Origin: Luteolibacter sp. LG18
Lineage (GTDB): Bacteria > Verrucomicrobiota > Verrucomicrobiia > Verrucomicrobiales > Akkermansiaceae
DNA: 64,000 bases
Assembly (NCBI RefSeq): GCF_036322585.1
Contig: NZ_AP024600.1
Coordinates: forward strand, 744,001-808,000
Reading direction: 5' to 3'
Below are positions 46,572-64,000 of this stretch, in pieces. The notes beneath the pieces were generated by a model that ran no database searches, was not told where the DNA came from, and saw only the letters and a program-made list of their open reading frames with translations. A program made the translations under genes and the position numbers. Within the stretch, counting starts at the first letter, position 1. The number at the start of each line of letters is the position of its first letter.

Positions 46572-47999
46572 TCACGCCAGAATCCCCTCCACCACCTTGC
46601 CGAAGACATCGGTGAGGCGGAAGTCGCGGCCGGAGTAGCGGTAGGTCAGGCGCTCGTGGTCGAAGCCTAACAAATGCAGGATGGTCGCGTGCAGGTCATG
46701 CACGTGCACCGGGTTCTCCACGGCCTTGAAGCCGAACTCGTCGGTCGCGCCGTGGACGTGACCGCCCTTCACGCCGCCACCGGCGAGCCACATGGTGAAA
46801 CCGTAGTGGTTATGGTCGCGGCCCTTCATCACGCCCTTGTTCGATCCGGCCTGCGGCAGCTCCACGGTGGGCGTGCGACCGAACTCACCGCCCCAGATCA
46901 CCAGCGTGTCATCGAGCATGCCGCGCATCTTGAGATCGGAAAGGAACGCGCCGATCGCCTGGTCGCACTCGCCCGCGAGCTTGCGATGGTCCTCGATGTT
47001 GTCGTGGCTATCCCACGGCTGGCCGTTGCCGTGCCAGAGCTGGATGAAACGCACGCCGCGCTCCAGCAAACGCCGCGCCATCAGGCACTGGCGGGCAAAA
47101 TTGCCCGGGCCATACATCTCACGGACATGCGACGGCTCCTTCGAAACATCGAAGGCATCGGTGGCCTCGCTCTGCATGCGGTAGGCGAGTTCGAAACTGC
47201 GGATGCGGGCTTCGAGCTGCGGATCGTGCGCGCGCTCGGCGAGGTGGCGTTCGTTCAGCTCCCGCAGCAACTCGATCTGCCCGGCCTGGCGCGGATCGCG
47301 GGCCGAGGGATTGCGGAGGTTCTCGATCATCCGCTCCAGCTCCTGGATCGAGGTGTCGAGGTAGGTGCCCTGGAATCGTCCGGGCAGGAAGGCCGAACGC
47401 CAGTTCTCGGTGCGCTTCACCGGCATGCCGCCGGGGCACATCGAAATGTAGGCGGGCAGGTCCTCGTTGCCACTACCCAGGCCGCAGCTCACCCACGAGC
47501 CCATTGAAGGCCGGGCAAGCCGGCCATCGCCACAGTTCATCAGCATCAGCGACGGCTCGTGGTTCGGCACGTCCGCCGTCATCGAGCGGATCACGCACAG
47601 ATCGTCGGCATGCTTCGCGGTGTGCTTGAACAGCTCGCTGACCTCCAGCCCGCACTCGCCGTAGCGGTCGAACGAGAACGGCGAACGCAGCGCCGCACCG
47701 GTGGGCCGTTCGGTCTTCAGGCCATCCAGCGAGATCGCCTTGCCGTGCTGCTGGTCGAGCAGGACTTTACGGTCAAAGGTGTCCACCTGCGACGGCCCGC
47801 CGTTCATGAACAGGTGCACCACCCGCTTCGCCCGCGGCGCGAAATGGGGGCCCACTACATCTCCCGCGGTCAGCGGCATCGCCGACGCCCGGCCACCCAG
47901 CAGGCTGCCGAGCGCGAGCCCGCCGAAACCCATCCCACAGCGGCGGAGGAAATCGCGCCGGTCGAGAATGAGGTCCTTGGCGGTGAGGGAATGGCTCAT
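46572..47999 (-). CDS. DUF1501 family protein with Tat signal
   Basis: 475 residues from ATG 47999, chosen because it gives a twin-arginine signal (LILDRRDFLRRCGMGFGGLA, R14-R15) and follows the upstream gene by five bases. The DUF1501 blocks include RVVHLFMNGGPSQVDTFDRK, SVMLMNCGDG-RP-MGSWVSCGLG type stretches, FIQLWHGNGQPWDSHDNIEDH, WGGEFGRTPTVE and DHNHYGFTMWLAGGGVKGG, with the metal-binding alkaline-phosphatase-like residues. This family belongs to the alkaline phosphatase/sulfatase superfamily and occurs mostly in Planctomycetes and Verrucomicrobia with DUF1549/1553 partners, as here. Function is not established; export by Tat is predicted. Confidence 0.9.
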   Translation of the reverse strand: MSHSLTAKDLILDRRDFLRRCGMGFGGLALGSLLGGRASAMPLTAGDVVGPHFAPRAKRVVHLFMNGGPSQVDTFDRKVLLDQQHGKAISLDGLKTERPTGAALRSPFSFDRYGECGLEVSELFKHTAKHADDLCVIRSMTADVPNHEPSLMLMNCGDGRLARPSMGSWVSCGLGSGNEDLPAYISMCPGGMPVKRTENWRSAFLPGRFQGTYLDTSIQELERMIENLRNPSARDPRQAGQIELLRELNERHLAERAHDPQLEARIRSFELAYRMQSEATDAFDVSKEPSHVREMYGPGNFARQCLMARRLLERGVRFIQLWHGNGQPWDSHDNIEDHRKLAGECDQAIGAFLSDLKMRGMLDDTLVIWGGEFGRTPTVELPQAGSNKGVMKGRDHNHYGFTMWLAGGGVKGGHVHGATDEFGFKAVENPVHVHDLHATILHLLGFDHERLTYRYSGRDFRLTDVFGKVVEGILA

Positions 48000-48004
48000 G
48001 GCGG

Positions 48005-50779
48005 TCAGTCGATGAAATTGAATTCGTTCGAGGCCCACAGTATTTGGATCACGTCCGCCCACGGATCGACGGCAGCGGAGGCATGCGAGGGCGCACCCGG
48101 TTTCGGAAAATCGCTGGTGAAATTCCCGACCACTGCGGGCTTCGCCTGTGGCGTCTCGCGGCCCATCACCTTCACCGTCCACGCGATGCCGCCGCAGGCA
48201 TCGCCATCCGGCGCGCGCAAGACGAGATCAAGAGTATCCCCGGCCTTCACCGTCACCCATTCGCCAGCGGGATCGATGGTGCTCTCGGGCGCGAACTTTC
48301 CTTCCACAAGCGTGCGGGTGCCCTGGGCATCGATCCGCCACGCGAGCGTGTTCCCCTCCTTCTGGGTGCGCTTGAGATGGGCGGTCATCTTCACCTCGCC
48401 GGAGCCGGTCGCGCGCCAGCGCAGGATCATCGCGTGCCGGGCCGCGACGTGGCCGCCGTTCGCCCCGACATTGAGCCAGCGGATCGGCGCGGTGGCCGGA
48501 TCAGGGCCGGTCTTCCACACCTCGTCCGCGAACAACGGGAACTCCCGTACTTCCAGCGGCAAGGTCGGGCTGTCATCGGCATGGCGCACCTCCCAAATGC
48601 CGCCGAGCTTCGGCTCGTAGTCCGCCGGATCGACCTTGGCGAGCCATTGCAGGATGGCGCGCGACTCGGCCTCGCGCGGCTCGCGCTGGAACAGGCGGCG
48701 GTAGAGCCAAGCCACCCGCGCGGCATTGTCCGGCTGGCGCTTGAAATCCGCATCCCCCGCAAGAGCTTCGGACCGACGCAGCAACAGCGGGTTGTTCAGG
48801 AAATACAGCGCCTGTTGCGGCACGGTGGTCTGGCCACGCGCCGCGCTGAGGTGGTCGGGATGCGGCAGATCGAACGACACGAACACGCCCGGCAGCGCGT
48901 AGCGGTCGATGAACGAGTAGACGCTGCGGCGTTCGTCGGCGGATGGCTCCTCAATCTTCACCGATCGCCCGCCCACGCTCTTCGTCTCCAGACTCCCGGC
49001 GGATGCCAGCAGGTGATCGCGCATCACCTCGAAATCCAGACGACGGCGGTTCCATTTCCAAAAGCGCGTGTTCGCCTCATCGATCGCGTTGTTTTCCGCC
49101 GGTCCTTCCGCCGCGAGCCGGAATGCCTGCGAGGTCGCCAGCAGGCGATTGAGTTCCTTCACCGAGCCGCCGTGCTCCGTGAACCACACGGCGAGGTAAT
49201 CGAGCAACGGCTGGAGCGGAGGTGCGGCCTGCTGCGTGCCGAAGTCCGCGGGATCGGCGAGCGGCGCGCCGAAATTCCACGCCCACACGCGGTTCACCAT
49301 CACGCGGGCGGTGAGCGGGTTTTTCGGATCGGCGATCTTCTCCGCCAGCGAGAGCCGCGCGCTGCGGTCCTTCGAAAACACCTCGCCGCCGAGGAAGCTG
49401 AACCAGTGGCGGTCGAACTTCTCCCCTCTCATCGCCGGGTTGCCACGCTTGAACACCACCGCCTCGCTCCACTTCGGCTTGTCCTGGAGCGTCATCGCGC
49501 GCGGCGGCGAGCCGGGGTGCTCGGCCTGGAGCTTGCTCGTGGCGCTGGCGCGCTTGCGCCGGGCGTTGTCGTCCTCCGTGTCCATGATCGAGGTCACCCG
49601 GTCCACGCCATAGGCCATCGGGCACGATGGATCCTTCGAACATTCCGCAAAGGCGCCACCCGCCATCCATTCCTCCGCCAATTTTGCGCAGGCCGCCTTC
49701 TTGCCCGCGTCATCCGCCGCGGCCATCTCGCGGTCCCATTCGGCGAGGCGCGGCACCGCCTTGTCGCCCGAAGTGTTTTTCCGCAACCAATCCCGCCACT
49801 GAAGCACGGCCTTCGCCCGGTAACGCCCGCGCTTGAACGCCTCCGAGGCCGCCATGCCGTGCTCCCAACCCTGCGCCTTCGCGCGCCAACCGAGATCGAG
49901 ATACACGGCGAGCGATTCCTTGCTCCGCAAGTGATCGACCAATGCCTGGCGGGCATCGAGGTCCTCCTTCTCCAGCTTGGCGGCTTCCACTTGATAAACC
50001 TTCAGCGCGGCCTCGTCGGCGGGCGCGCCCACCACCGGCTTCTGCTCCGGCTCGGTGACGTTGTCGAAGATCGAGTAGAGCGAATAATAGTCCTGCGTGG
50101 TGATCGGATCGAACTTGTGATCGTGGCAGCGCGCGCACGACACCGTGCTGGCCATGAAGCCGCGGGTCACCACGTCCACGCGGTCATCGATCGTCTCCTC
50201 GTGCCCGGATCGCGGTCCCACGGTGATGAAGCCGAGCGCGGCGAGGTCGGGATGATCCGGACGGTCCACCATCAGGTCCGCAGCGATCTGGAGTTCCACG
50301 AACCGGGCGTAGGGCAGGTCGCGGTTGAAGGCCCCGATCAGCCAATCCCGGTAGGTGTAAGCGAAGGGGTAACGGTTGTCGGCGTCGAAATTGTAGCCGC
50401 TGGTATCGGCGTAGCGGGCGACGTCCATCCAATGGCGGGCCCAGCGTTCGCCGTAGGCCGGGCTGGCGAGCAGCTCATCGACCAGCGCCTTCCGGGTGGC
50501 CTCGTCCGGATGCGCGTCGATCCGGGCCAGTTGCTCCGCGGAGGGCGGCAGGCCAATGAGGGTGTAAGCGGCCCGCTCCAGCCACTGGCGCGGGGAAGTC
50601 TCCGCCGCGGCCTTCATTCCCATCTTCGCCCGCGCATCCTCTAGGAAAGCATCGACCGGGTTCCTTCCCTCCGCTCCAGCGGGAGCCGCAGCCACCGGAG
50701 GCACATACGCCCAGTGCGGTTCATCCGCCGCGAGGACGGAGGAAACCGACAGGCAAACGCTGACCAAGGGCCGCCACAT
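48005..50779 (-). CDS. Planctomycete-type cytochrome-like DUF1549/DUF1553 protein
   Basis: 924 residues from ATG 50779 with signal MWRPLVSVCLSVSSVLAADE. DUF1549 (about 42-245) has DAFLEDARAKMGMKAAAE, ERWARHWMDVARYADTSGYN and the heme-type C215-A-R-C218-H219 in STVSCARCHDHKFDPIT. A middle variable region (about 250-500) precedes DUF1553 with LTARVMVNRVWAWNFGAPLADPADFGTQ and AARGQTTVPQQALYFLNNPLL. The final part (about 790-924) is a carbohydrate-binding-like beta domain (WLNVGANGGHVAARHAMI). It lacks a separate N-terminal cytochrome domain. Together with the DUF1501 gene downstream it forms the common operon of these phyla; its biochemical role is unknown. Confidence 0.9.
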   Translation of the reverse strand: MWRPLVSVCLSVSSVLAADEPHWAYVPPVAAAPAGAEGRNPVDAFLEDARAKMGMKAAAETSPRQWLERAAYTLIGLPPSAEQLARIDAHPDEATRKALVDELLASPAYGERWARHWMDVARYADTSGYNFDADNRYPFAYTYRDWLIGAFNRDLPYARFVELQIAADLMVDRPDHPDLAALGFITVGPRSGHEETIDDRVDVVTRGFMASTVSCARCHDHKFDPITTQDYYSLYSIFDNVTEPEQKPVVGAPADEAALKVYQVEAAKLEKEDLDARQALVDHLRSKESLAVYLDLGWRAKAQGWEHGMAASEAFKRGRYRAKAVLQWRDWLRKNTSGDKAVPRLAEWDREMAAADDAGKKAACAKLAEEWMAGGAFAECSKDPSCPMAYGVDRVTSIMDTEDDNARRKRASATSKLQAEHPGSPPRAMTLQDKPKWSEAVVFKRGNPAMRGEKFDRHWFSFLGGEVFSKDRSARLSLAEKIADPKNPLTARVMVNRVWAWNFGAPLADPADFGTQQAAPPLQPLLDYLAVWFTEHGGSVKELNRLLATSQAFRLAAEGPAENNAIDEANTRFWKWNRRRLDFEVMRDHLLASAGSLETKSVGGRSVKIEEPSADERRSVYSFIDRYALPGVFVSFDLPHPDHLSAARGQTTVPQQALYFLNNPLLLRRSEALAGDADFKRQPDNAARVAWLYRRLFQREPREAESRAILQWLAKVDPADYEPKLGGIWEVRHADDSPTLPLEVREFPLFADEVWKTGPDPATAPIRWLNVGANGGHVAARHAMILRWRATGSGEVKMTAHLKRTQKEGNTLAWRIDAQGTRTLVEGKFAPESTIDPAGEWVTVKAGDTLDLVLRAPDGDACGGIAWTVKVMGRETPQAKPAVVGNFTSDFPKPGAPSHASAAVDPWADVIQILWASNEFNFID

Positions 50780-50897
50780 GAAACGCACAATTACCACGCG
50801 GGACGTCCCGGAGCTGGCGATTCTTTCACCGCGGCGGCGACCGGGCAAATCGCCCGGCTGCCCCGTGTAAATTAATCGTCAAGGAATCTCACGTCTC

Positions 50898-50925
50898 TTG
50901 TCGCCGCACCGTGCCGATATGTTAT
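50898..50925 (+). promoter_or_regulatory. Putative promoter of the giant solenoid gene
   Basis: TTGTCG (50898-50903), a 16-base spacer and TGTTAT (50920-50925), ending nine bases before GTG 50935. The upstream GTG 50911 would lie within the promoter, which favours GTG 50935 as start. Confidence 0.35.
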
Positions 50926-50934
50926 GCACTATCC

Positions 50935-53900
50935 GTGCACTCCGCATTCCTCCGCTGCCTGCTGGCAGGCTCTCTGGTTTTTTCCTCTACCTACCTTTCC
51001 GCCGAGGAGATCCAGCTTTCCGAAAAAGCGTCGAGATATCACGAGGCGCTGCTGGGACGCCCCTCCAGCGACACCCTTTACCGGCGGTTCGTGGAAGCGT
51101 GGCGGGAAGACGGATCGACCAACGAGCTGGAGCAATTTCTCATCAAACGCGCCGACGTTGGCCGACCCGCGGACTGGGCGGTGCTGGCGCGGAACCAATT
51201 GCTCGCCGGAAAAGAAAAGGAGGCGATGGCCAGCTTCGACAAGGCTCTGGCCGCGGGAGCCGAACCGGGATGGATCGAGCTGGAAATCGCCCGCATGCAC
51301 CTCCGTGCCGGGCGCTTCGACGAAGCCATCGCCCATGCCGACAAGGTGCCCGCCACCGCCGCCGAGTTCCCGGAGGCCGTCCGTGCCGCCGGTGAAGCCG
51401 CTGCCCGCGCCGGGCAGGGCGAGGATGCCGTGGCCCGCTGGACGAAGGCGCTCGATGCCGCGCCGGACGATCTCGACCTGCTGGCCGACCTGATCCGCAC
51501 CGCGGGCCGCGAGGGACAGAAGGAAGCGGCCCTTACCTTCAGCCAGCGGCGGGTGGAACGGGAAAAGGATCCGTTCAAGAAAACCGAGGCCCGTCTCGAT
51601 CGCGCCGATCTGCTCACCGCCGCCGGGCGCACCGATGAGGCCCTGGCCGAATGGACCGCCGCCCTCGATACCTCCGGGACGGATTCGTGGCTGGAATCGG
51701 AAATCCTCACCCGCGCGGAGAAGAGCAGCCGCAACCGGCAGGGCGACACCGGCTGGCTCAAGCAGATCGCCGCATGGAGCACCGCATTTCCCAACCGCAT
51801 GGAAATCGTGCGCCGCCATGCCCGTGCGCTGGCCGCAACCGGTGATCCCAACACCGCCTTCACCCTGCTCACCGAGCTCCTCAAACGCATTCCCGGCGAT
51901 CAAGCGCTGCGGTTGGAACGCATCGATCTCCTCGACCGCGGCAACCGTCTGGATGAAGCCGCCGTCGAGTGGCGGAAGCTCGCAGCGGACGACCCGAAGA
52001 ACGAAACCCCGTGGCTGAAACTCGCGGACCTCCAATTCCGGTTGGACCGCCCCGCGGAGATCCGTTCGGCCCTGGAGGGGCTCTCGAAACTCTCCTCCGC
52101 CGATCCCCTGAAGCAGGTCAACCAAAGCGACCTGTGGTTCCGCTACGGCCTGGCCTCGGAAGGCGAGGCCCGTTTGCGCGAGCTCGCGAATGGAGCGGCT
52201 GGAGCCCAGGCCGAGCAACGGCTGGCGCAGTATCTCGCCAGGATCGGCCGGCCCAAGGACGCGATCGAGTGGTGGCGGAAACTGGGAGCCCGCCCGGCAC
52301 TCACCGATCTTCTCGCCGCGGCCCAGGGCCTGGGCACCGCGGGTTCGCATGACGCGGCATTCACTCTCCTTGTTTCCCGCCAACAGGAGTTCGCGAAACT
52401 CCCGGACTACCGTGCCGCCTACGCACCTGCGGCCCTGACCGCCCAACAACCGGCCAAGGTGCTGGAAATCGCAGCCGATCTGCTCAAGGACGGCGCGGCC
52501 GCCGGCAATTACGACGCCGCCATCGGATGGATCGCGACCGCCACCGAGGCCGCAGGCGAGCGGGACGCATGGATCAGGACTCTCCAGGAAAACCCGGCCC
52601 GCAGCGTGGCGGAGACGCTGCTGCTCGGCCGCCTCTTCGTGGGAGCGAACCGCCCGGCGGACGCGGATACCCTGCTCGGGGCCTCCACCGATCCCCTGCT
52701 GCGGGACGGCCACATCGCCCTGCTGCAGCGCCAGGGCAAAACCCGCGAGGCGGTCGAACGCCTCGGCACCCAACCACCGGCCGACCGCCTCCAGGAGGCG
52801 GCCTGGCAACGCCGGGTGGCGGGCTTGAAGCGTGCAGCCGGAGATCCCGCCGGAGCCCTGGCCGCTTGCCTGCGTTGGCGCGAGCTGGCACCGGAGGAAA
52901 TGAACGCTTGGCTCGAAGAAGCCCGGCTGCTCCTCGTCACCGACGCCCGGGCGGCGGAAAAACAGCTCCGCAAGGCCGTGGCCCGCTTCGACAAGGAGCC
53001 CGTCTTCCGCACCATGCTGATGGAGGCCGTTGAAAACAACGGCGACGCCCGCGGCGCGATCGAACTCGCCTGGCAGCAATATTCGGTCGCGGAGAACTCC
53101 GCCGACCAAAGCCGCTGGCTCCACCGGCTCGCCGAACTCGGGCAGCGCTACAACCTGCTGCCCGATATCGTGGAAGAATTCCGCACCCGCGGCCGCCGCG
53201 ACCCTCTCTCCCCCTCCCCATGGCTGGGCCTGGCCGAGTGCGCGAAATTGCAGAACAACACCCGCGACGTGGTCGAAGCCCTCCAACAGGCAGCCCAGCG
53301 CGCCCCGCGTGATGCGGCGATCCTTGGGGAACTCGCCACCCTCGACGAGCGCTCCGGCAACAACACGAACGCCATCGCCCGCTTCGAGGACATCGCCCGC
53401 CTCGCCCCCGGCCCCGAATCCGCCCGGCAACTCGCCCAGGCCCGCGTCCGCAATGGCCAGATCGCGCGCGGTCTGCTGGAGATCCAGGCCCTTGCGGGTG
53501 AAGCGGGCACCGATATCCGGGTGATTGAAAGCACCGCGGTCTCGGTCGCCTCCGCCGGCTGGACGGAAGCCGCCATCGATCTGCTCCGGAACATCGACCC
53601 CAAACTCCACGACATCCGTTCCCAACTCACCCTTGGCAAGCTCCTGGCCATCGATGGTCACGAACGGGAGGCCAACGCCTTGTTCCTGGCCATCCTCCGG
53701 ACCCCGGAACCTCCGCCGTCGACTCCGGAGGAAGAACAGGCGCGCCAGGGCAAAAGCAACTGGCCCGAGGCCACCCGGATCAACCAACTGATCCAAACTT
53801 TCACCTCATCGATCCGGAACCAAGCGTCCGGCGGAGTCGCGTCCGTTCTCCAGAACACCTATGGCCACCAGCCCGGCTATGAGAGGGATCTCTGCGCCGC

Positions 53901-56900
53901 CCACGCACTGGCCACCGCCCTCACCCTGGACGATGACGTGTGGCGCGCCAATGTGGACGCCATCCCGATCCTGAAATCAGGATCGAAGGAGGAATGGCGG
54001 CAGACGCTCGACGAAGCGATGTCCTACGACAGCGCCCCCTCCGCCTCCCTTCCCCCGGAAAGCGGAGGACGGCTCATGCTGCTCCGCTACATGAACTACG
54101 GCGCGTGGAACTCGCTTCCGGACGACCAGCTATCGAGCCTTCACCAGCGCCTGCGGAAAGCCGGCATCGATTCCCAATGGCAGGTGCTAGCCACCTTGGC
54201 CGGACGATCGGACGCCGCTTTGGCCAAACATCTGCAGGAATTTCTCGACCATCCGGAAACGCAACCGTTGGAACAAACCCATCGGCAGACCATGCTGCAC
54301 ACCATCGCGTCCAAGGCGACCGGACTTCAGACAACCTCCCCGCCTCCGCCTTGGGTGCCGCTTGCACGCAAGTGGATCGAAGGCTCGCTGGCACAGCCGG
54401 ATCTCGGCCCCGGGCTGAGCGTCTACTACCGATCCGTCCTGATCCGCCTGCTGGACGCCATGGGGGACACGGAGGCGCTTGTCGCCACGCTCAATGCGAT
54501 CGGCCGGGATCACCTGGCGGCCCTGAACCCATCCGCCGCCAAGTCCCCTCCGCCGCCTCCCGCCCCGTTTTTCTCATACCCTTACTGGCAAGCGGACGAT
54601 TTCGGTTACCAAGGCCGCTGGAGCCGTGGCTACGCCGGGCTCTCCCGCCGGGCTCTTCCGCCACCCCAGCCGAGGGTTGCCCCCGCGGATGCCCGGACCT
54701 ATCCGCTGTATTACCTGAACGGACTCGGAGCCACCTGGTGCAAGCGCCTTCAACCGGACGCCACGCTGAAGCGGCTGGAATCCCCGGTCCTGCGCGCCTA
54801 CGTGGCTTGGACCGCGACGAGCTCGCTGAAACAAATCGATCGCGAGATCGAGGCCCAGCCCCCCTTCTCGGAAATCGCGGCCGACCTCGTCGCGATCCGC
54901 TGGACCTGGGACGTAGAGCACCTTGAGAAACGGACCAACGAGCTGGAATCGTGGGCGAAACGGCTCAAGGAAAACCCCGGCACCGCCCAAAAGGCGTGGT
55001 CGGCGCTCACCGGACTCGCCGCGAAGGACAAGGACCGCCGGACCACGATGATCACCCGGCTCACCGGCCTCCTCGATGAACCGGCCAACGCCCTGCTGGT
55101 CTCGCAGTGCGCTCCCCTCCTCCGCGACCAAACCCTGGTAGAGAAGGCCCAGCTCCTCTACGAGAATCAGATGTCCTCCTCCGGACTCTCGAGAACTTTC
55201 AGGACCCCACAGCAGATGGGTTTCGGAGGCGCCGCGCCACTCATCCAGATCCAGCCTCACCGCACCGATTGGCAGAAGATCGCCAAACTCGTCGGGTCAA
55301 ACCAGCAGGACCTGGCCACCGCGGAGGCCACCCGCGCCTTGGAAGGGGTGATCCGGACCTGGAACACCGGTTATGACCGCTCCCTACGTCAGCAAATCCA
55401 ATCCCTCAAGCCCGACATCAAGGGCGTGGTGGATGCGGCCCTCAAGCGGCTAGCACCAGGACCCGATCATGGGTTGCTCTACCGGATCAACCACATCCGG
55501 CTGCTGGATGCCCTCCAAGGCTCACAGGCCGCCCTCGAACCGGCCGAAGCGCTCGCCCGCCTCCGCCCTTCCGATCCTGGCTGCGCGCTGGACGCCATCC
55601 TACAGCTCCCACCGAACCGGCAGAACGAAGCGTTTGCCCGCCTCGACGCCCTCGCCGGATCGGATGTCACCGGATTCAGGGCCGCCATGCGGCAGAGGGC
55701 CTCAAGCGTGCTTTCCCAAAGCAGCATGTCCGGGTCGATGGATGAATTCGAACTCCTTGGAACATGGCAATCACGCCCCGGGTTCAATGTCCCGGGTGGT
55801 TCCCCTTGGCGGATCGGAATCCTGAGTGCGATCTCAAGGGGACTGCAGGAATCGAACGGTGGGGACGCCCAAACGAACGCCGCCCGGCTCAAACGCCTCA
55901 CCGACCTCGTCCTGCTATGGACGGAGCTGTGCCTGGATGATCCGGAGACCGCCGAGGCGGCGTTTCAACTTTGCCTGAGCGCCCACAAATCCTCCGACTC
56001 CATTGACCTGCTCACAGCGGCAAGGCGGGTGATCGGCAGCGGGGCCTATGCCACCTCCGCCGCCCAGGTGGATCGCAATGGGATTCTGAGGGTCCACCAA
56101 AACAGTGATGACGATGGTGCCTACGCCTTGGAATTCCTGCTGTTCAACCGCGATCCCGGGGCCGCCATCGATGCCGGGCAGCTCACGGCCATCCGCGCGA
56201 AGGACCCCGACCTGGCTGACTGGATCGAACGCTTCCGCACCGCCAAATCCGCCCCAGATTTTCTACCTCTCCTCGTCCGCCAGTCCCCCTCGTCTTCCTT
56301 CAACAGCGGCCAGACGTGGCCCGCCACCGCGAAATTCCGGGCCGCCGTGCGGCGGGCCGCGGAACTCCCGAAGGCGGGCGCTGCGGTGGAAGCACTGATC
56401 GCGCAGAACACCAACGTCAACCCGTTGCTCGGAGGCGATCCTCGACAGCTCGATCCGCTTTTTGCCCGCGCGCTCGAGGACGCCTACGCCCGCGGGCCGA
56501 AAGAATTCGGCCAGTTCGTCACCCATTGCCTCACTCGTGCGGACAAGGCCACGGACGGCAATCCGCATGGCTACAACGCCGACTACCTCCGCCAGCAGGT
56601 CATCGGTCGCATGATTGATGCGGCGGAACGCCCCGTGATCGCCTGCGCCGTTGTCCGCCATCTGGCCGATGCGAGGATCGAACTGCCAAACGTGTCCCTT
56701 AGCAGCGGCAATGCCCGACTTCTAGACCCGACGATCCATGACCTGGCCGCCGCGCTCAAGAACGCCGGGATCGACCGCCTCGATGCCCTCGCCCGGATCG
56801 GGTTCTGGACCCGCACCCGCCAGAACAGCCATGGGTTCGATGGATACGACATCTACGATAGCCGGATGAATGGAGAGAACGAGGATGGGACTCCGCCCCC

Positions 56901-59484
56901 TCTGTCGTTCAACTGGCTCGCCACGGAAGCCTTGAGCCGGTTTTCACAATCGACGGATCGGAACAAACTCTTCGAGGCCTCCGCCAAAAAGACGAATGCC
57001 TCCGCGGCCGAATGGGTCGCCGTCGCGCTGTTGGCACCCGCGGGCCCGACCCGCACCACGTTCGCCCGCAAGGCCCTCGACGCGGGAGCGAAGGAGTTCG
57101 GCGCCCTCCCCGCCGGGTTCCGGGAACCGATGTTGAACGAGCTGTTCGGTGCCGCGAGCCCCGCTGAACTGGCTGCCCTGCCGGAAATGGTCCGCGCCCC
57201 TTTGCGTAAGAACCGCAAGGCGCAGCTCGACCAAGTCGAAAAGGATCTGGAAAAGGCCGTCAGCCTCCTGAACGACAACTCCCCCACCGATCCCTATCGC
57301 CGCCAACGGGCCGGCGGCGTGATCCAGCAACGCGTCCAGCTCCTCGCCCAAATGGGGGAAATCGAAGGACTCCATCACCTGCTGGTTACCTGGGCGGAGA
57401 AAGCCAAGGGCCTTTCGGCCTCCACCCTCGATCCCCGTTACCGATCAGCAGCGCTCCTGCAGAACGCCCTGTCATCCTATCCCAATACTCCCGGGCTGCT
57501 GGCGGCGACCCCGGCGTGGCGGGAGGAGCTCTCCACCATCGACTCCACCAGCGCAGGTAGATCCGGCATCGAGTCATTCTGGAACGCGCTGAGGCAATCC
57601 ACGCAGTCCTCTCTCGGCTCCCAAGCGATCTCCCGGGACGCGTGGGGTGGTTTGACGGCGGTATCACCGAAGGTCCAGGCCACCTACCTGATGTCCGCCG
57701 AGTCCCTCACCTACCTGTTGGAGCGTCAATCGAAGGAAACCGTCGGCGGCTGGCTCACCGCGGCAAAAAGCTCTCCCCTCCTCACCGCTGCGATCCACTG
57801 GCACGCCAGGGAGGCATCTGGTTCCTCCGATGTCTCCGAAGCCACCCTGCTGGACAGTTACACCTCGGCGCTGGCCGAAGCGGGTGTCTCCGCCCAAGAG
57901 GTGGCCAAATTCGCCCTGGCCCGGATCCTGGAGTCCCGCCGCGACTCCAATCCCGCGCGTCCGGATGAAATTCTCCGCATCACCACCAAGCACCTGACGG
58001 CGATGGGAAGCGCCGCGACCTCCTCTCATGAGCAGGCCTCCTCGCTTCTTTACCAGATGACCTCCCGGTCCCCCCTCAGCCCGGAGACCATCACTGAAGC
58101 CGGACGACTCCTCGAACTCCTGCTCGGCTCCAATCCCTCCGCCAAGTCGGCGGACAATTCCAACTCCTACCTAATGAGAACCGCGGAGGCCATCGGGCGG
58201 CAAGACCTCATGGTTGTCATCATCCGGAAAAGCGGCGTCCCTCATGACAACTCGGCCTCGATGCTCCAGGAGCAGGCTCGCAAGGGCCGGCTCGATGTGG
58301 TGGCGGAGATCCTAGTCCGGGACTCGGACGCTTGGTTCGAAGCCCCCACCTTCACCATCACCACCGAACGGCTCATCTCCGCGGCGACCGCGGAAGGAAA
58401 ACTGGCGGATGCCCGGGGCCTGCTCCTGAGGACCTTCCTTTCGTCCGGCCTCGATGGGTCTGGCGGCAATGAAACCCCGGCGGAATCCCGCGATGCCCGC
58501 ATCACCCGCCTCCAAGCGGAATTCCAAAACTCGAAGATCGAGGAGGCTGCAATCCGCAGGGCGCTGTATGTCTACCTCGCCCAACCCGCCGCCTATCTCC
58601 TAGGCAGGACCGCGGTGGCGGAGGAATTCCGGGAAGTCGATTGGAGCCGCCTCCCCACTCCCAGCGATGACCGGGCGAACGGATTCCAGAAGTTCGGGAT
58701 GGCCCGACGTCTCCTCACCTTCACCACCTGCTCCGCGCTCCACGCCGGAGACACCGCTTCTCTCCAATCGTTCACCCACATGCTGGAGTCCATCCCTCAG
58801 GCGGTGACCCGGACCGAGGCAGCCCAGTCAATGATCACCCAGAATGCGCAGCCCATCGCGCTGACCCTGCTCGTCCTCGCCGGAAAAAATGGCGGCACGC
58901 TGCCGGAGCCCTTGCGGCCGGTGACCCGCGACTTCCTCACCGCGATCCTGAACACCATCGGGGCAACCAGCACCTCCAGCTACCGGAGCCAGCCCTTCGA
59001 CGCATTGGCGCTCGTCTTGGTTCCCGCCGACGAAGATCCCGGCAAGCTCGCCCCGCTCGTCGCTCCCGCGGCAAAAGACTGGCCGGATTCGTTGCAGAAG
59101 ACGCTTGAAACCCTGCAAATCCAACGGGTTTCACGGGACGTCGATCTGCGGCTCACCATCCTGAAACTAGCGGCGAAAACCCCGCGGCTGGCCAGATTTC
59201 TGGAAAACTCCGGCCGGACTTCCCTATGGGACGGGATGCCAGCGGAAGGACCGACCCGCGCGGCCTTCGTGAAAGAAGTCCTGGGCGATCCGGCCCTCCG
59301 GGCGAAGCTCGCCCCGGTGAATGTCGCCAGCCTGCCCGGCAGGAATCCGACCTCGGAAACCGTCGATCTCATCCAGCTCTACCTGAACGAGCAGCGCGGC
59401 CGCCTCGATCCCGAGGCGGCCAAGCGAATCGAATCGTGGATCGAAGCCACCCGCAAGAAGCTCGGCGGGGAGCCATCCAAATGA
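50935..59484 (+). CDS. Giant exported TPR/alpha-solenoid protein, unknown function
   Basis: 2,849 residues from GTG 50935 (GTG 50911 possible, but see the promoter entry). A signal peptide is visible (MHSAFLRCLLAGSLVFSSTY-LSAEE). The first 1,000 or so residues are helical pairs with TPR-like pattern (WAVLARNQLLAGKEKEAMAS, AARAGQGEDAVARWTKALDA, ALAATGDPNTAFTLLTELLK). A proline-rich linker lies near residues 1195-1250. The rest is helical, with little similarity I can name. The last 365 or so residues (DNA about 58380-59484) are clearly related to the 428-residue protein encoded at 59967-61253. No enzyme motif, membrane anchor or sorting tail was seen. One could think of a periplasmic or surface scaffold; this is inference. 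Confidence 0.8.
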   Translation: MHSAFLRCLLAGSLVFSSTYLSAEEIQLSEKASRYHEALLGRPSSDTLYRRFVEAWREDGSTNELEQFLIKRADVGRPADWAVLARNQLLAGKEKEAMASFDKALAAGAEPGWIELEIARMHLRAGRFDEAIAHADKVPATAAEFPEAVRAAGEAAARAGQGEDAVARWTKALDAAPDDLDLLADLIRTAGREGQKEAALTFSQRRVEREKDPFKKTEARLDRADLLTAAGRTDEALAEWTAALDTSGTDSWLESEILTRAEKSSRNRQGDTGWLKQIAAWSTAFPNRMEIVRRHARALAATGDPNTAFTLLTELLKRIPGDQALRLERIDLLDRGNRLDEAAVEWRKLAADDPKNETPWLKLADLQFRLDRPAEIRSALEGLSKLSSADPLKQVNQSDLWFRYGLASEGEARLRELANGAAGAQAEQRLAQYLARIGRPKDAIEWWRKLGARPALTDLLAAAQGLGTAGSHDAAFTLLVSRQQEFAKLPDYRAAYAPAALTAQQPAKVLEIAADLLKDGAAAGNYDAAIGWIATATEAAGERDAWIRTLQENPARSVAETLLLGRLFVGANRPADADTLLGASTDPLLRDGHIALLQRQGKTREAVERLGTQPPADRLQEAAWQRRVAGLKRAAGDPAGALAACLRWRELAPEEMNAWLEEARLLLVTDARAAEKQLRKAVARFDKEPVFRTMLMEAVENNGDARGAIELAWQQYSVAENSADQSRWLHRLAELGQRYNLLPDIVEEFRTRGRRDPLSPSPWLGLAECAKLQNNTRDVVEALQQAAQRAPRDAAILGELATLDERSGNNTNAIARFEDIARLAPGPESARQLAQARVRNGQIARGLLEIQALAGEAGTDIRVIESTAVSVASAGWTEAAIDLLRNIDPKLHDIRSQLTLGKLLAIDGHEREANALFLAILRTPEPPPSTPEEEQARQGKSNWPEATRINQLIQTFTSSIRNQASGGVASVLQNTYGHQPGYERDLCAAHALATALTLDDDVWRANVDAIPILKSGSKEEWRQTLDEAMSYDSAPSASLPPESGGRLMLLRYMNYGAWNSLPDDQLSSLHQRLRKAGIDSQWQVLATLAGRSDAALAKHLQEFLDHPETQPLEQTHRQTMLHTIASKATGLQTTSPPPPWVPLARKWIEGSLAQPDLGPGLSVYYRSVLIRLLDAMGDTEALVATLNAIGRDHLAALNPSAAKSPPPPPAPFFSYPYWQADDFGYQGRWSRGYAGLSRRALPPPQPRVAPADARTYPLYYLNGLGATWCKRLQPDATLKRLESPVLRAYVAWTATSSLKQIDREIEAQPPFSEIAADLVAIRWTWDVEHLEKRTNELESWAKRLKENPGTAQKAWSALTGLAAKDKDRRTTMITRLTGLLDEPANALLVSQCAPLLRDQTLVEKAQLLYENQMSSSGLSRTFRTPQQMGFGGAAPLIQIQPHRTDWQKIAKLVGSNQQDLATAEATRALEGVIRTWNTGYDRSLRQQIQSLKPDIKGVVDAALKRLAPGPDHGLLYRINHIRLLDALQGSQAALEPAEALARLRPSDPGCALDAILQLPPNRQNEAFARLDALAGSDVTGFRAAMRQRASSVLSQSSMSGSMDEFELLGTWQSRPGFNVPGGSPWRIGILSAISRGLQESNGGDAQTNAARLKRLTDLVLLWTELCLDDPETAEAAFQLCLSAHKSSDSIDLLTAARRVIGSGAYATSAAQVDRNGILRVHQNSDDDGAYALEFLLFNRDPGAAIDAGQLTAIRAKDPDLADWIERFRTAKSAPDFLPLLVRQSPSSSFNSGQTWPATAKFRAAVRRAAELPKAGAAVEALIAQNTNVNPLLGGDPRQLDPLFARALEDAYARGPKEFGQFVTHCLTRADKATDGNPHGYNADYLRQQVIGRMIDAAERPVIACAVVRHLADARIELPNVSLSSGNARLLDPTIHDLAAALKNAGIDRLDALARIGFWTRTRQNSHGFDGYDIYDSRMNGENEDGTPPPLSFNWLATEALSRFSQSTDRNKLFEASAKKTNASAAEWVAVALLAPAGPTRTTFARKALDAGAKEFGALPAGFREPMLNELFGAASPAELAALPEMVRAPLRKNRKAQLDQVEKDLEKAVSLLNDNSPTDPYRRQRAGGVIQQRVQLLAQMGEIEGLHHLLVTWAEKAKGLSASTLDPRYRSAALLQNALSSYPNTPGLLAATPAWREELSTIDSTSAGRSGIESFWNALRQSTQSSLGSQAISRDAWGGLTAVSPKVQATYLMSAESLTYLLERQSKETVGGWLTAAKSSPLLTAAIHWHAREASGSSDVSEATLLDSYTSALAEAGVSAQEVAKFALARILESRRDSNPARPDEILRITTKHLTAMGSAATSSHEQASSLLYQMTSRSPLSPETITEAGRLLELLLGSNPSAKSADNSNSYLMRTAEAIGRQDLMVVIIRKSGVPHDNSASMLQEQARKGRLDVVAEILVRDSDAWFEAPTFTITTERLISAATAEGKLADARGLLLRTFLSSGLDGSGGNETPAESRDARITRLQAEFQNSKIEEAAIRRALYVYLAQPAAYLLGRTAVAEEFREVDWSRLPTPSDDRANGFQKFGMARRLLTFTTCSALHAGDTASLQSFTHMLESIPQAVTRTEAAQSMITQNAQPIALTLLVLAGKNGGTLPEPLRPVTRDFLTAILNTIGATSTSSYRSQPFDALALVLVPADEDPGKLAPLVAPAAKDWPDSLQKTLETLQIQRVSRDVDLRLTILKLAAKTPRLARFLENSGRTSLWDGMPAEGPTRAAFVKEVLGDPALRAKLAPVNVASLPGRNPTSETVDLIQLYLNEQRGRLDPEAAKRIESWIEATRKKLGGEPSK

Positions 59485-59488
59485 CACC

Positions 59489-59815
59489 TCAGGCGGTGAG
59501 ATCCTTGGTCTCGCCGCCCGCGTTCTTGATCACCGAGGCGATGCCGTTCTCCGCGGCCGCCTCCGTGACGTATTGCTGGCTCTGGCCGATAATCTGGCCA
59601 TTGCCCGCCTTCAGCACGAAATACGACTTCCCGCTGGAGCTCTGGCGGATCTCGAAATTCTTGCGGTCGGTCCCGTTCTTTTTCACGGACGCAATGCCGT
59701 TTTCCGCCGAAGGCTTCGCCTCGTAAGCCTCGCTGGAGAGGATGATCTCGCCATTCCCCGCCTTGAGCCGGAAGTGGTATTTACCGGACGCCTCGCTTTT
59801 GAAGAGTTCGTACAT
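59489..59815 (-). CDS. YegP-like protein (two DUF1508 repeats)
   Basis: 108 residues made of two tandem DUF1508 units. Unit 1 is MYELFKSEASGKYHFRLKAG-NGEIILSSEAYEAKPSAENGIASVKKN; unit 2 is FEIRQSSSGKSYFVLKAGNG-QIIGQSQQYVTEAAAENGIASVIKN. Each has the F.LKAGNGqii..Sq.Y....~aenGI.SV.kN pattern of E. coli YegP. The function is unknown; the proteins are small and soluble. It is encoded on the opposite strand between the two solenoid genes, and its stop codon lies four bases from the stop of the giant gene. It may be unrelated to them. Confidence 0.9.
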   Translation of the reverse strand: MYELFKSEASGKYHFRLKAGNGEIILSSEAYEAKPSAENGIASVKKNGTDRKNFEIRQSSSGKSYFVLKAGNGQIIGQSQQYVTEAAAENGIASVIKNAGGETKDLTA

Positions 59816-59931
59816 GGTGGTTTCGTGGATTCATCGTGACTAACTGTTATTTTCCCACGAAAGGCAAGCCCGGCCCGTCCATGCCGCCGTCGATTCCATC
59901 GGTAAAAACTCCGTCAACCGGTCGGCGTATC

Positions 59932-59959
59932 TTGCGGCCAACCACGAGCGATGGCTTAT
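59932..59959 (+). promoter_or_regulatory. Putative promoter of the solenoid paralogue
   Basis: TTGCGG (59932-59937), a 16-base spacer and GCTTAT (59954-59959), ending seven bases before ATG 59967. The layout matches the giant gene's promoter candidate. A GGAGGA directly touching the ATG is too close to act as a Shine-Dalgarno site. Confidence 0.35.
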
Positions 59960-59966
59960 CGGAGGA

Positions 59967-61253
59967 ATGCACCTCGCGTTCACCGGCCTCCTGTCGCTCA
60001 TCCTGCTTGCCCTGGCCGTGCCGGTCCGGGCCTACGAACCACCGGTAGACGAGAAGCTCCCGGCTCTCCTCCTGGAAGGGAAGACCGATCAAGCGCTGGC
60101 GCTGCTGCCCTTGGAACCGGACAGCCTGATCCACCCGCCCCACTACAGCCCGGCGTTGGAGAAGGCGATCCAGCAGGAACTCGCGGCCGGCCACCTGAAG
60201 GATGCACGCGGACTGCTGCTGCGAGCGATCCTGTCCGGCGGCGAAAATACAGCGCCCGACACGGAGACTCCGTCCGCCCGCATGGCCCGCCTGCAAGCGG
60301 AGTTCCACGCTCTCAAGATCGACGATTCCGCGCTGCGCCGGGCGCTCCTCGCGCACCTCGTCACGACCGCAGACTGCATCCTCGGCCGGGTGCCTGATTT
60401 GGGGGATTTCCGGAACGAGGACTGGGAGACATGGGCAAAGGGGCCTCTCGCGGCCGAAAACCGGGACACCTCGGATGACCTAATTCGCCATACCACCATC
60501 GCCAGACGGATGCTCCTCCTCACCACCTGTGCCAGCCTCCATGCGGGAAACCCCGCGGCCTTGGATTCATTGACCCGCGCCCTGTCCCTGGCAGGCAGCG
60601 ATGAGCACCCGGTGAGCCGCGATCTGCTGCTGGTGGACGGCCCCGTGATCACCCTGACGCTGCTGACCATCGCCGAACGGCATGGCGGCGCCTTACCGGA
60701 AGCGATCGAAACAGCCGCCCGCCGACATCTCACCACGTCCTTGGAAGCCCGCACGGCCCCCTTGTATGTCGATCCACCCCTCGATTCCCAAACGGCAATT
60801 CTTGCGCGCGACGCACGGGACCTCACCCGATTGAACGGGCTCTTCCGGACTTCATGGTCCCGTCTTTCTCCCCTCGATCGCCTCACCATGCATGCCGGCG
60901 TCTGGTGCCGGCCGGCGGATGAAGGCGTGGTCCGGATGATGGTTCGGCTGGCATTGAAGAATCCGCGGTTCGGCGGAACAGCCTTCCAAGCAAACCCCGA
61001 CCACCGGACGAATACCCTTACCTCTCTCGGCTGGAGCCAATTCCCCGGCCGTCAGGCAGAATGGACGCGGGCCGTGTTCGCCGATCCCGAGATCCGCGCG
61101 AAAATGCCGCCGGGCGCTCTCGCGGGGCTGCTGGCATCCTCGCCGCCCTCACGGGAACTGGCCGACAGCGTGAAAAGCTACCTGCATGAACAAGCCAGCC
61201 GGTTGGATACGGCCACCACCGCCACAATCCAGCGATGGCTCGATACTCCGTGA
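59967..61253 (+). CDS. Exported solenoid protein, paralogue of the giant protein's C-terminus
   Basis: 428 residues with signal peptide MHLAFTGLLSLILLALAVPVRA. From about residue 70 to the end it aligns with the last 365 or so residues of the 2,849-residue neighbour. Shared blocks are DARGLLLRxxLS, (I/M)xRLQAEFxxxKI, RRAL, (L)LGR, TTCxxLHAGxxAxLxSxT, xTLLxxAxxxGGxLPE and the end ADP-xxRAK with xxYLxEQxxRLD. It is all-helical with no enzyme motif. The upstream half of the giant (TPRs) is absent. It looks like a tandem partial duplication followed by independent export. Function unknown; a partner or regulator of the giant is a guess. Confidence 0.8.
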   Translation: MHLAFTGLLSLILLALAVPVRAYEPPVDEKLPALLLEGKTDQALALLPLEPDSLIHPPHYSPALEKAIQQELAAGHLKDARGLLLRAILSGGENTAPDTETPSARMARLQAEFHALKIDDSALRRALLAHLVTTADCILGRVPDLGDFRNEDWETWAKGPLAAENRDTSDDLIRHTTIARRMLLLTTCASLHAGNPAALDSLTRALSLAGSDEHPVSRDLLLVDGPVITLTLLTIAERHGGALPEAIETAARRHLTTSLEARTAPLYVDPPLDSQTAILARDARDLTRLNGLFRTSWSRLSPLDRLTMHAGVWCRPADEGVVRMMVRLALKNPRFGGTAFQANPDHRTNTLTSLGWSQFPGRQAEWTRAVFADPEIRAKMPPGALAGLLASSPPSRELADSVKSYLHEQASRLDTATTATIQRWLDTP

Positions 61254-61273
61254 AGGGTTCCCCATCCCCGGGA

Positions 61274-61301
61274 TTGCCAGCGCCGCTGCCCGTGCTTGAA
61301 T
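61274..61301 (+). promoter_or_regulatory. Putative promoter of the M42 gene
   Basis: TTGCCA (61274-61279), a 16-base spacer and TTGAAT (61296-61301), with TG one base before the -10. It ends seven bases before ATG 61309; the ATG at 61300 overlaps the -10 itself. Confidence 0.35.
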
Positions 61302-61308
61302 GGGCGGG

Positions 61309-62391
61309 ATGTCCATGAAACCCGACGACCGCGCCTTCCTTTTCGAACTTCTGGAAACCCCGAGTCCGACGGGCTTCGAAATGCCGGGACAGCGGGTCTG
61401 GGCGAAGTGGATCGGCCAGCACGCGGCGGAAACCGCCTGCGATGCCTACGGTTCCACCTGGGCCATCCTGCCCGGGAAGTCCGAGCGGATCGTGATGCTG
61501 GAAGCGCACGCCGATGAGATCGGTTTCATCATCAAGCACATCGACGACAACGGCTTCCTCCGGCTTGACCGCATCGGCGGCAGCGATGCCGCGACCGCCC
61601 GTGGCCGCCGCCTGACCTTCCTCGGCGACGAGGGACCGGTGTCCGGCATCATCGGCAACACCGCCATCCACCTCCGCCGCGACGAGGCGGGCCAGGAAAA
61701 GGCCCCGGCCGTGCACGAACTGTGGGTCGATGTCGGTGCCTCCAGCGCCAAGGAGGTGGCCGCGCTCGGCCTGCGCGTGGGCCACCCGGCGGTCTATCAA
61801 GACAGCCCGATGGAACTTTCCCACGACCGGCTGGTGGGCCGCGCCCTGGACAACCGGATCGGCGGCTACATCATCGCCCAGGTCATGAAGCGGGTGGCGA
61901 AGGAGAAAAAGAAGCCCGCCTTCACGCTGGTCTGCCTCAATGCGGTGCAGGAGGAGATCGGCGGCCATGGCGCGATGATGGCAACCTACCGCCTGAAGCC
62001 CGAGGTCTGCGTCTGCCTGGATGTGACTCACGCCACCGACACGCCGGGGATCGACCACGTGAAGTTCGGCCGGGTGAAGCTCGGCGGCGGCCCCTCGCTG
62101 ACGCACGGTTCGTCCAACCACCCGAAGGTGGTCCAGCGCCTGATCGAGGTGGCGAAGAAGGCCTCGGTGCCGGTCCAGCACGAGTCCAGCAGCCGCTTCA
62201 CCGGCACGGATACCGACAAAATCTTCCACAGCCGCGAGGGTGTGCCGAGCGCGCTCGTGTCGCTGCCGCTGCGCTGCATGCACTCGGTGGTGGAAACCGC
62301 CCATCTGGGCGACATTGAGAAGACAATCGAGCTGCTCACCGGCTTTGTCCTGTCGCTCGACGCCGACGACACTTTCCATCAGACCCTGTGA
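61309..62391 (+). CDS. M42 family aminopeptidase
   Basis: 360 residues from ATG 61309. All metal and catalytic residues of the M42 (FrvX/DAP) family are in place: H67 in LEAHADEIGF, D181 in VGRALDNRIGGY, E215-E216 in VQEEIGGHG, D238 in CLDVTHATDTPG and H325 in RCMHSVVE. The N-terminus MSMKPDDRAFLFELLETPSP-TGFE is typical. M42 enzymes are self-compartmentalising di-metal aminopeptidases, often dodecameric, that trim short peptides in the cytoplasm. No signal peptide. The next gene starts in the GTGA overlap at its stop codon, so it may be coupled. Confidence 0.92.
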   Translation: MSMKPDDRAFLFELLETPSPTGFEMPGQRVWAKWIGQHAAETACDAYGSTWAILPGKSERIVMLEAHADEIGFIIKHIDDNGFLRLDRIGGSDAATARGRRLTFLGDEGPVSGIIGNTAIHLRRDEAGQEKAPAVHELWVDVGASSAKEVAALGLRVGHPAVYQDSPMELSHDRLVGRALDNRIGGYIIAQVMKRVAKEKKKPAFTLVCLNAVQEEIGGHGAMMATYRLKPEVCVCLDVTHATDTPGIDHVKFGRVKLGGGPSLTHGSSNHPKVVQRLIEVAKKASVPVQHESSSRFTGTDTDKIFHSREGVPSALVSLPLRCMHSVVETAHLGDIEKTIELLTGFVLSLDADDTFHQTL

Positions 62392-64000
62392 AATCCCTGC
62401 TCCTCGCCTTGGCCCTCGTCACTCCCGTGCTTGCTGCCGACTCCGGCACCCCGGCGGAAGCCGCCGTGCGCTTCGTGGAGAAACTGCGGGGCGGCCAGGT
62501 GGACCTGGCTCCGGGCGCGGACACAGCCCTCTCCGCCGCGACCGGCAAGGACAAGCGTGAGATGATCGCCGCGAGGATCAAACGTCTCTCCCGTGAAATC
62601 AGCGCCGACCGCGTGGAGGTGGGCCCGGTGAAACAGGACGGCGACCTGGCCGCGGTGCTCGTTCGGCAGGCCGCCGGATTCGATCCCGGCAGCCTGCGGG
62701 TGATCGCCATCGGTCTGGTCCGCAAAGGCGACCAATGGCTCCCCGCCCCGGTGCCGGGATCCTTTGAAAACACCAGCCTGGGGTATGACGAATCCCGGGC
62801 TGGCCGCATCGCCGCCCTTGAGGCGTGGATGACCCGCGAACAGGTGGTGGATCTTTCCACCCTGCGGGACCAATCCGCCGAACGGCTGCACAAGGAAATC
62901 GGCGGCAAAATCCAGAAGGAAGTCCTCCAAAAGGAAAAGCCCCCGGAACTGGTCAAACGCCTGCTGACGGCCTGCGCCACCCGCGACCAAGCCACCATGC
63001 TCGGCCTGATCGGCGGTCTTCAGAAGGACTTGCCGCGGGACTGGAGCGAGCGGCTGGGAGCGGTGGGCCGCGCCTTTTCCAAGGAAACCTTCGAACCCGC
63101 GTGGCGGCTGCTCGCGGCACCGGGCGTGATCCGCTCGGTGGTGCTGGAGGACGGTGACGACCAACACGCGGCGATCACCATGGCCTGCCTCGATGCCTCC
63201 GCCGAATCGGGCCGCGGCACGCTGCCCCACATCCGCCTGCTCAGCCTGGATCTGGAAAAAGATCCCGAAGGACTCTGGCGCATCGATCTGCCCGCTGCCC
63301 TGCTGCGGAGCGATCCTCCCGATCCCCATGGCGACGAGGACGGCATCGTGGGCACGGACTACCTGGATGCGTTGCCCGCCGTCTGGCGGCGTCAATTTCC
63401 CCTCGCCAAGCTGGACACCGCCAAGGCCGCCAGCGAGGCCGTCGTCGCCGCGCTGCGGGCAAACACCCCGGATAGCCTGCTGACGCTACTCGATCTCGAG
63501 GGCGACCCGGAACAAGCCCGGCTGGGTGCCTCCCGGCTGGCCCTCATCTGGCGGGACCTTCATTCCCCGCGGGACCTGACCACGCTGCTGCCGATCGGAT
63601 TCATCGAGAAGAATGACGGGGCGGTCGCCTCCTACCAGGTCTTCTCCTCACGGCAACCGGAACGCGCGGACCTGCGCATGCTCTACTTCGTGAAACGGAA
63701 CGGCGGCTGGCACTTGATCCCCGGCCTCCGTCCCGGCGACCAGGTGCAACCCGAGCTGGCGGAAGTGAAGGCCCAGGCCGACACCGTCGCGCCCGATTGG
63801 ACCAAGGACTGGGAGGATCTCGCGCTCGCGGACAGCCCCGCGCTCGATAGCGTGCCCGGTGGAGAGGGGCCACCCGAAGAGGCCACACGTGGCATTTTCA
63901 ACGAGTGGAGCAAAGCGATCGTGGCCGGAGACATCGGCACCTCCATCCGTCTGACCGCCCATCTGAAACGCGACCGGGGAACCGCGCGCCTGCTGCGCAA
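62388..64000 (+). CDS. Unknown exported protein (cut by window edge)
   Basis: The frame opens at GTG 62388, which shares the GTGA sequence with the stop of the M42 gene, and stays open to the right edge (over 535 residues visible). The start gives a signal peptide (MKSLLLALALVTPVLAADSG). The body is helical and charged with two related halves: AAVRFVEKLRGGQVDLAPGA then, much later, GIFNEWSKAIVAGDIGTSIR. Strand-like ends include VIAIGLVRKGDQWLPAPVPGSFENTSLGY and MLYFVKRNGGWHLIPGLRPGD, which repeat the pattern 'v..v.r.g.~W...p..' and suggest two SnoaL/NTF2-like domains. I do not recognise the family. Probably periplasmic and translationally coupled to M42. Confidence 0.75.
   Translation, partial: MKSLLLALALVTPVLAADSGTPAEAAVRFVEKLRGGQVDLAPGADTALSAATGKDKREMIAARIKRLSREISADRVEVGPVKQDGDLAAVLVRQAAGFDPGSLRVIAIGLVRKGDQWLPAPVPGSFENTSLGYDESRAGRIAALEAWMTREQVVDLSTLRDQSAERLHKEIGGKIQKEVLQKEKPPELVKRLLTACATRDQATMLGLIGGLQKDLPRDWSERLGAVGRAFSKETFEPAWRLLAAPGVIRSVVLEDGDDQHAAITMACLDASAESGRGTLPHIRLLSLDLEKDPEGLWRIDLPAALLRSDPPDPHGDEDGIVGTDYLDALPAVWRRQFPLAKLDTAKAASEAVVAALRANTPDSLLTLLDLEGDPEQARLGASRLALIWRDLHSPRDLTTLLPIGFIEKNDGAVASYQVFSSRQPERADLRMLYFVKRNGGWHLIPGLRPGDQVQPELAEVKAQADTVAPDWTKDWEDLALADSPALDSVPGGEGPPEEATRGIFNEWSKAIVAGDIGTSIRLTAHLKRDRGTARLLR

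Follow-up and report, generated by a model that had tools for sequence, protein, structure and literature searches.

A giant exported TPR protein and a separate copy of its tail in Luteolibacter sp. LG18, and their relation to a MoxR/Bat-linked family of PVC bacteria

In Luteolibacter sp. LG18 a very long gene for an exported protein is followed, after one gene on the opposite strand, by a short gene whose product resembles the end of the long one. A sequence-only reading of the window (the whole stretch of DNA analysed, 64,000 nucleotides, positions 744,001 to 808,000 of contig NZ_AP024600.1) took the two for a modular system of a long and a short form, a candidate envelope scaffold or regulator pair. 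The question is whether they form such a system, and what kind of protein the giant is. The features concerned are as follows, with coordinates counted within the window.

50935..59484, forward strand: giant exported TPR/alpha-solenoid protein, 2,849 aa, assigned as an orphan paralogue in a MoxR/Bat-linked giant TPR family
51022..53724, forward strand: its N-terminal TPR domain, residues 30-930, family-defining (alignment A1 of 21 giants; Pfam TPR_19, TPR_14 and TPR_2 above cut-off)
58282..59481, forward strand: its C-terminal tail, residues ~2450-2849, homologous to the short protein
59489..59815, reverse strand: DUF1508/YegP-like gene (Pfam E=3e-40), convergent with the giant gene and lying between it and the short gene
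59967..61253, forward strand: short exported protein, 428 aa, a stand-alone version of the giant's tail (BLASTP, structural model and tail tree)
61300..62391, forward strand: M42 family aminopeptidase (Pfam E=1e-79), 46 bases 3′ of the short gene

Both frames lie where they were first described and are intact, and the DUF1508/YegP gene is the one opposite-strand gene between them. The giant may start at either of two GTG codons, 50911 (2,857 aa) or 50935 (2,849 aa). Both proteins look exported and helical, as had been claimed: the giant has a hydrophobic, signal-peptide-like N-terminus and otherwise lacks a strong transmembrane segment, and the N-terminus of the short protein is also signal-peptide-like. 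The codon-position GC of both genes is typical for coding sequence of this genome. Foreign origin was considered on grounds of composition and set aside, codon use and GC of both genes falling within the range of neighbouring genes with no clear signal.

The resemblance between the two proteins is specific. By BLASTP, giant residues 2450-2837 align with residues 37-426 of the short protein, almost its entire mature length, at 32-33% identity over ~400 aa (E=1e-43, 153 bits), while the best of 500 shuffled short proteins reached 28 bits. The shared blocks quoted in the sequence-only reading (DARGLLLR, RLQAEF..KI, TTC..LHAG and GG.LPE) are present, and the profile comparison of tail and short protein that it proposed as a check gave a significant match (99% probability, E=5e-18). 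It is highly improbable that these are ordinary TPR proteins related by repeat similarity alone. The giant does have TPRs in its N-terminus, and the solenoid fold of the short protein is generic, with no specific PDB match; but the short protein has no TPR match or recognisable TPR motif, and its match is collinear over ~390 residues of the tail and recurs in no other part of the giant. For the tail pair, the BLASTP, profile and shuffle results refute that explanation.

The shared C-terminal region belongs, as had been noted, to no named family: neither Pfam nor NCBIfam gave a match (for the short protein, at E up to 1), and no sequence relatives of the tail region were found in the PDB. AlphaFold2 predicts the short protein to be an all-helical alpha-solenoid (mean pLDDT 74, pTM 0.76), for which comparison with PDB structures returned generic helical-repeat matches only and no convincing or specific fold. 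Its paired-helix arrangement is broadly that of ARM/HEAT-like alpha-solenoids (SARM1 ARM, importin alpha, LbcA), with a best VIA-align Z of 8.9 (9% identity) and nothing from Foldseek at E<0.001; for the predicted model, this similarity is in the range expected between unrelated helical repeats. The last 950 residues of the giant are likewise all-helical in a model that is poor (mean pLDDT 60, pTM 0.44) and gives a hint of helical content only. A named stand-alone domain in the tail was rejected, there being no Pfam or NCBIfam match, no PDB sequence relative and no convincing fold. Of the shared module proposed earlier, then, the specific C-terminal match stands and the separable domain is not supported: the region resembles the final stretch of a helical solenoid, of which divergent versions are found in other giants as well.

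The giant is classified by its other end. Its only Pfam matches are TPRs, confined to the N-terminal region, where the sequence-only reading had also placed them, and the profile of alignment A1 matched residues 30-930 at all 907 positions (E=9e-301). With 2,849 aa and an N-terminal hydrophobic stretch, it has the length (~2,000-3,900 aa) and the N-terminal export signal of the family. The best NCBIfam similarities of the N-terminal TPR region are to PrsT (TIGR02917, the XrtA/PEP-CTERM TPR protein) and PgaA-type TPR proteins. Scores stay well under the curated cut-offs (for PrsT the window giant reaches 63.9 bits against 312.2), the likeness is limited to TPR stretches, and neither a beta-barrel nor an exosortase context was seen near it.

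Relatives of the giant are widespread. A search of 99 related genomes found proteins of ~2,700-3,900 aa whose first ~930 residues are 27-39% identical to the window giant, and the window genome has a second giant, at G000:C1:2.48 Mb. In a 289-genome even sample of the phylum, a giant was present in at least 16 genomes and 13 of 152 genera, a lower bound because three best candidates were scored per genome. The remainder of the protein diverges faster. Between the operonic giants of the window genome and G099, the nearest species by its M42 gene (92% identical), most of the first 800 residues show 80-90% identity and those past residue 1,000 show 48-66%, and a contig search of genomes with the window giant's C-terminal 699 residues returned no relatives. 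The giant family is PVC-wide, with proteins of 1,900-3,900 aa that combine a conserved ~900-aa N-terminal TPR domain with a fast-evolving helical remainder. Tandem giants also occur: a 3,878-aa protein beside one of 2,266 aa, 41% identical, in G095 (L043/L044), and a 3,786-aa protein beside one of 2,594 aa in G160 (L074).

The usual copy of the family sits in an operon with the recurrent order giant, ~550-aa protein, MoxR (AAA_3), DUF58, BatA (vWA) and a larger vWA/GATase1-like protein, a context hidden from the sequence-only reading. The second giant of the window genome, ~2,995 aa, heads a complete example (G000:C1:2481904-2498897; L035, L087), and G099 also retains an operonic giant. In more distant copies, from G155 and G240, the giant lies at the opposite end, after MoxR, DUF58, BatA and the vWA/GATase-like protein. 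Since alignment A1 is too divergent for such a scan, named genomes were scanned with the ~550-aa family, which gave 66 loci in Verrucomicrobiota, Lentisphaerota/Kiritimatiellota and Planctomycetota; carriers include Lacipirellula limnantheis, Lentisphaera marina, Rubritalea profundi and Roseibacillus persicicus. A profile-confirmed giant adjoins the ~550-aa gene in 38 of the 44 loci that could be assessed, which are those with at least 6.5 kb of upstream DNA, and in one further locus that position is taken by a large ORF that gave no profile match. In the 289-genome sample the ~550-aa protein occurs in 14 genomes, all 14 of which also have a giant. BatA, present in 214 of the 289, is far commoner, so that the giant marks one subtype of MoxR/Bat system.

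In the ~550-aa protein a membrane region at the N-terminus is followed by a long, charged central part, and a block at the C-terminus is conserved, with the consensus ESFVQRDDVPE..K.GVKEYF; the protein matched no Pfam or NCBIfam family. One member, at L051:4877-6535 on the reverse strand, and its relatives (alignment A5) make up a membrane/coiled-coil family of ~500-560 aa found across PVC bacteria beside giants and MoxR.

MoxR/Bat (Bacteroides aerotolerance) operons contain moxR, a DUF58 gene, the vWA genes batA/batB, the TPR genes batC/batE, and batD. The usual giant resembles them in being a TPR component alongside MoxR, DUF58 and BatA-type vWA proteins. Unlike their small TPR proteins, it has ~2,000-3,900 aa, and unlike their operons the PVC operon has the giant and then the ~550-aa membrane/coiled-coil protein; the window copy lies outside any such operon. 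A role in complex assembly has been suggested for TPR proteins in Bat operons with MoxR and vWA proteins (PMC5700661). The purpose of Bat operons is unsettled, and deletion of bat genes in Leptospira biflexa gave no phenotype (PMC3557215). Our literature search, incomplete in coverage, found no description of the giant family or its operon.

The window giant is not adjacent to moxR, DUF58 or batA genes, whereas its paralogue at 2.48 Mb is; nowhere in the 64 kb was there a profile match to MoxR, DUF58, BatA or the ~550-aa family. In a tree of the N-terminal domain, operonic copies are found throughout and orphan copies arose several times. (One tip, L074_3786, is labelled orphan, yet its operon is present in L086; L072 is cut by a contig end.) The window giant groups with copies from G020 and G002 (100/100), and the G104 giant is a further relative, closest to this clade. 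MoxR/Bat genes were not found in the DNA fetched around the G020, G002 and G104 giants. The window copy is ~30-38% identical to its orphan relatives, compared with ~46-65% among operonic copies in the same genus. Tree and gene context together show the window giant to be an orphan paralogue of the operonic family, from a deep orphan clade. Two orphan giants of one family, at L042:16068-20000 and L052:15684-20000 (reverse strand), are convergent with a DUF3686/DUF7902/AAA protein, an adjacency kept in two genomes.

The short form is distributed quite differently from the widespread giants. It was found in the window genome only, that is, in one of 73 congeneric genomes and one of 99 relatives, with none in the other genomes of the order that were searched and no match among plasmid records. 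The co-occurrence of long and short forms expected from the sequence-only reading, and with it the notion of a long/short pair system, therefore fails. A dedicated two-gene envelope regulator, in which a long TPR form and a tail-only form always cooperate, is on these grounds improbable. The genes are indeed adjacent, both products are exported and their tails are each other's closest relatives, but the orphan giants of G020, G002 and G104 and operonic giants do without a short form. The intervening DUF1508 gene, moreover, is on the opposite strand and older at the locus (the copy at the same place in G099 is 84% identical), so that the giant and the short gene are not one operon. Nor were the promoter-like elements reported at similar distances from both starts recovered: in a sigma-70 consensus scan, neither gene had such a site upstream.

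The M42 gene is another old resident, conserved in 71 of the 73 congeneric genomes. The 46-base spacing had prompted the idea that the short gene and the peptidase are functionally linked, an idea weakened by the near-universal presence of M42 in the genus and the rarity of the short gene; this closeness is no evidence of such a link. On the other side of M42, and overlapping it by 4 bases, 62388-63998 (forward strand) encodes an exported protein without a Pfam or NCBIfam match, whose gene is kept beside M42 in the relatives examined. A PVC-typical pair of DUF1501 and DUF1549/DUF1553 (PSD1) genes adjoins the giant at 46572-50848 (reverse strand). The stretch from PSD1 to M42 (50848-61300) varies across the genus, holding DUF1508 only in G099, the giant and short gene in the window, and a PATR-repeat autotransporter-like ORF in G002 (L130:7742-12655).

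What remains is the history of the short gene. In the tail tree its product and the tail of the window giant are sisters (97/97), within the orphan clade. The short protein is shown to be a lineage-restricted duplicate of that tail with its own signal peptide. The two tails are ~1.9 changes per site apart, and the operonic tails of the window genome and G099 only ~0.8, so these two species probably split after the duplication. In that case either both genes were lost in G099 or both were received by the window lineage.

It is a real possibility that partial duplication left the short gene behind as a by-product, or that it is what remains of a second giant; it would then have no role tied to the giant, which would itself be an orphan with an unrelated envelope role. 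The restriction of the short form to one genome fits this, as does the locus of the nearest species, which reads PSD1, DUF1508 and M42, lacks both giant and short form, and has 35 bases in place of the window's ~1.4 kb that contains the short gene; the tandem giants of G095 and G160 suggest that duplication is common at giant loci. However, the short gene keeps an intact 428-codon frame, normal codon-position GC and its own signal peptide. Twenty-two residues, among them the Cys of the TTC block, are invariant across the five tails of the orphan clade; the short protein thus has them in common with four giant tails, although some two changes per site have accumulated since it parted from its sister. 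A functionless copy is unlikely to have stayed open for so long.

In the most likely explanation, which we hold tentatively, a MoxR/Bat-associated TPR protein gave rise to the giant, now an exported scaffold, and the short form is a released tail that would bind the tail's partners. The ancestral giant would have been a long scaffold in the envelope, serving proteins that are clients or partners of the MoxR/vWA machine, as has been proposed for the small TPR proteins of Bat operons. The orphan giant, freed from the operon, may have been retargeted to other or accessory partners; as it has no MoxR/Bat genes nearby, any present-day link to that machine is an inherited one by inference only. Being essentially the tail solenoid alone, the short form would bind the same things as the tail, whether a partner or a second tail, and could act as a soluble competitor, a cap or an extra subunit. 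The tail evolves fast and giant and short protein are only 33% identical, so a common partner is not assured. A bolder version, which we consider rather unlikely in full, is that the PVC MoxR/DUF58/BatA machine has as its conserved core pair the giant (~300 kDa), as an exported solenoid scaffold, and a coiled-coil membrane partner, that orphans have been retargeted, and that in this lineage the tail-only protein acts on the giant's tail as a competitor or cap.

The homology of giant and short protein is real and specific, and the pair is a one-lineage event. The short tail copy is of lesser import, a natural experiment in which the end of a giant solenoid was freed as a separate exported protein. 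The more useful result is a PVC-wide giant TPR protein encoded beside the machine of MoxR, DUF58 and BatA, together with an unnamed ~550-aa partner, in an adjacency that spans Planctomycetota to Lentisphaerota. A likely identity is thereby provided for one kind of giant gene found in these phyla. MoxR/Bat operons are widespread and of unclear function, and the giant would supply the PVC machine with a concrete, testable scaffold.
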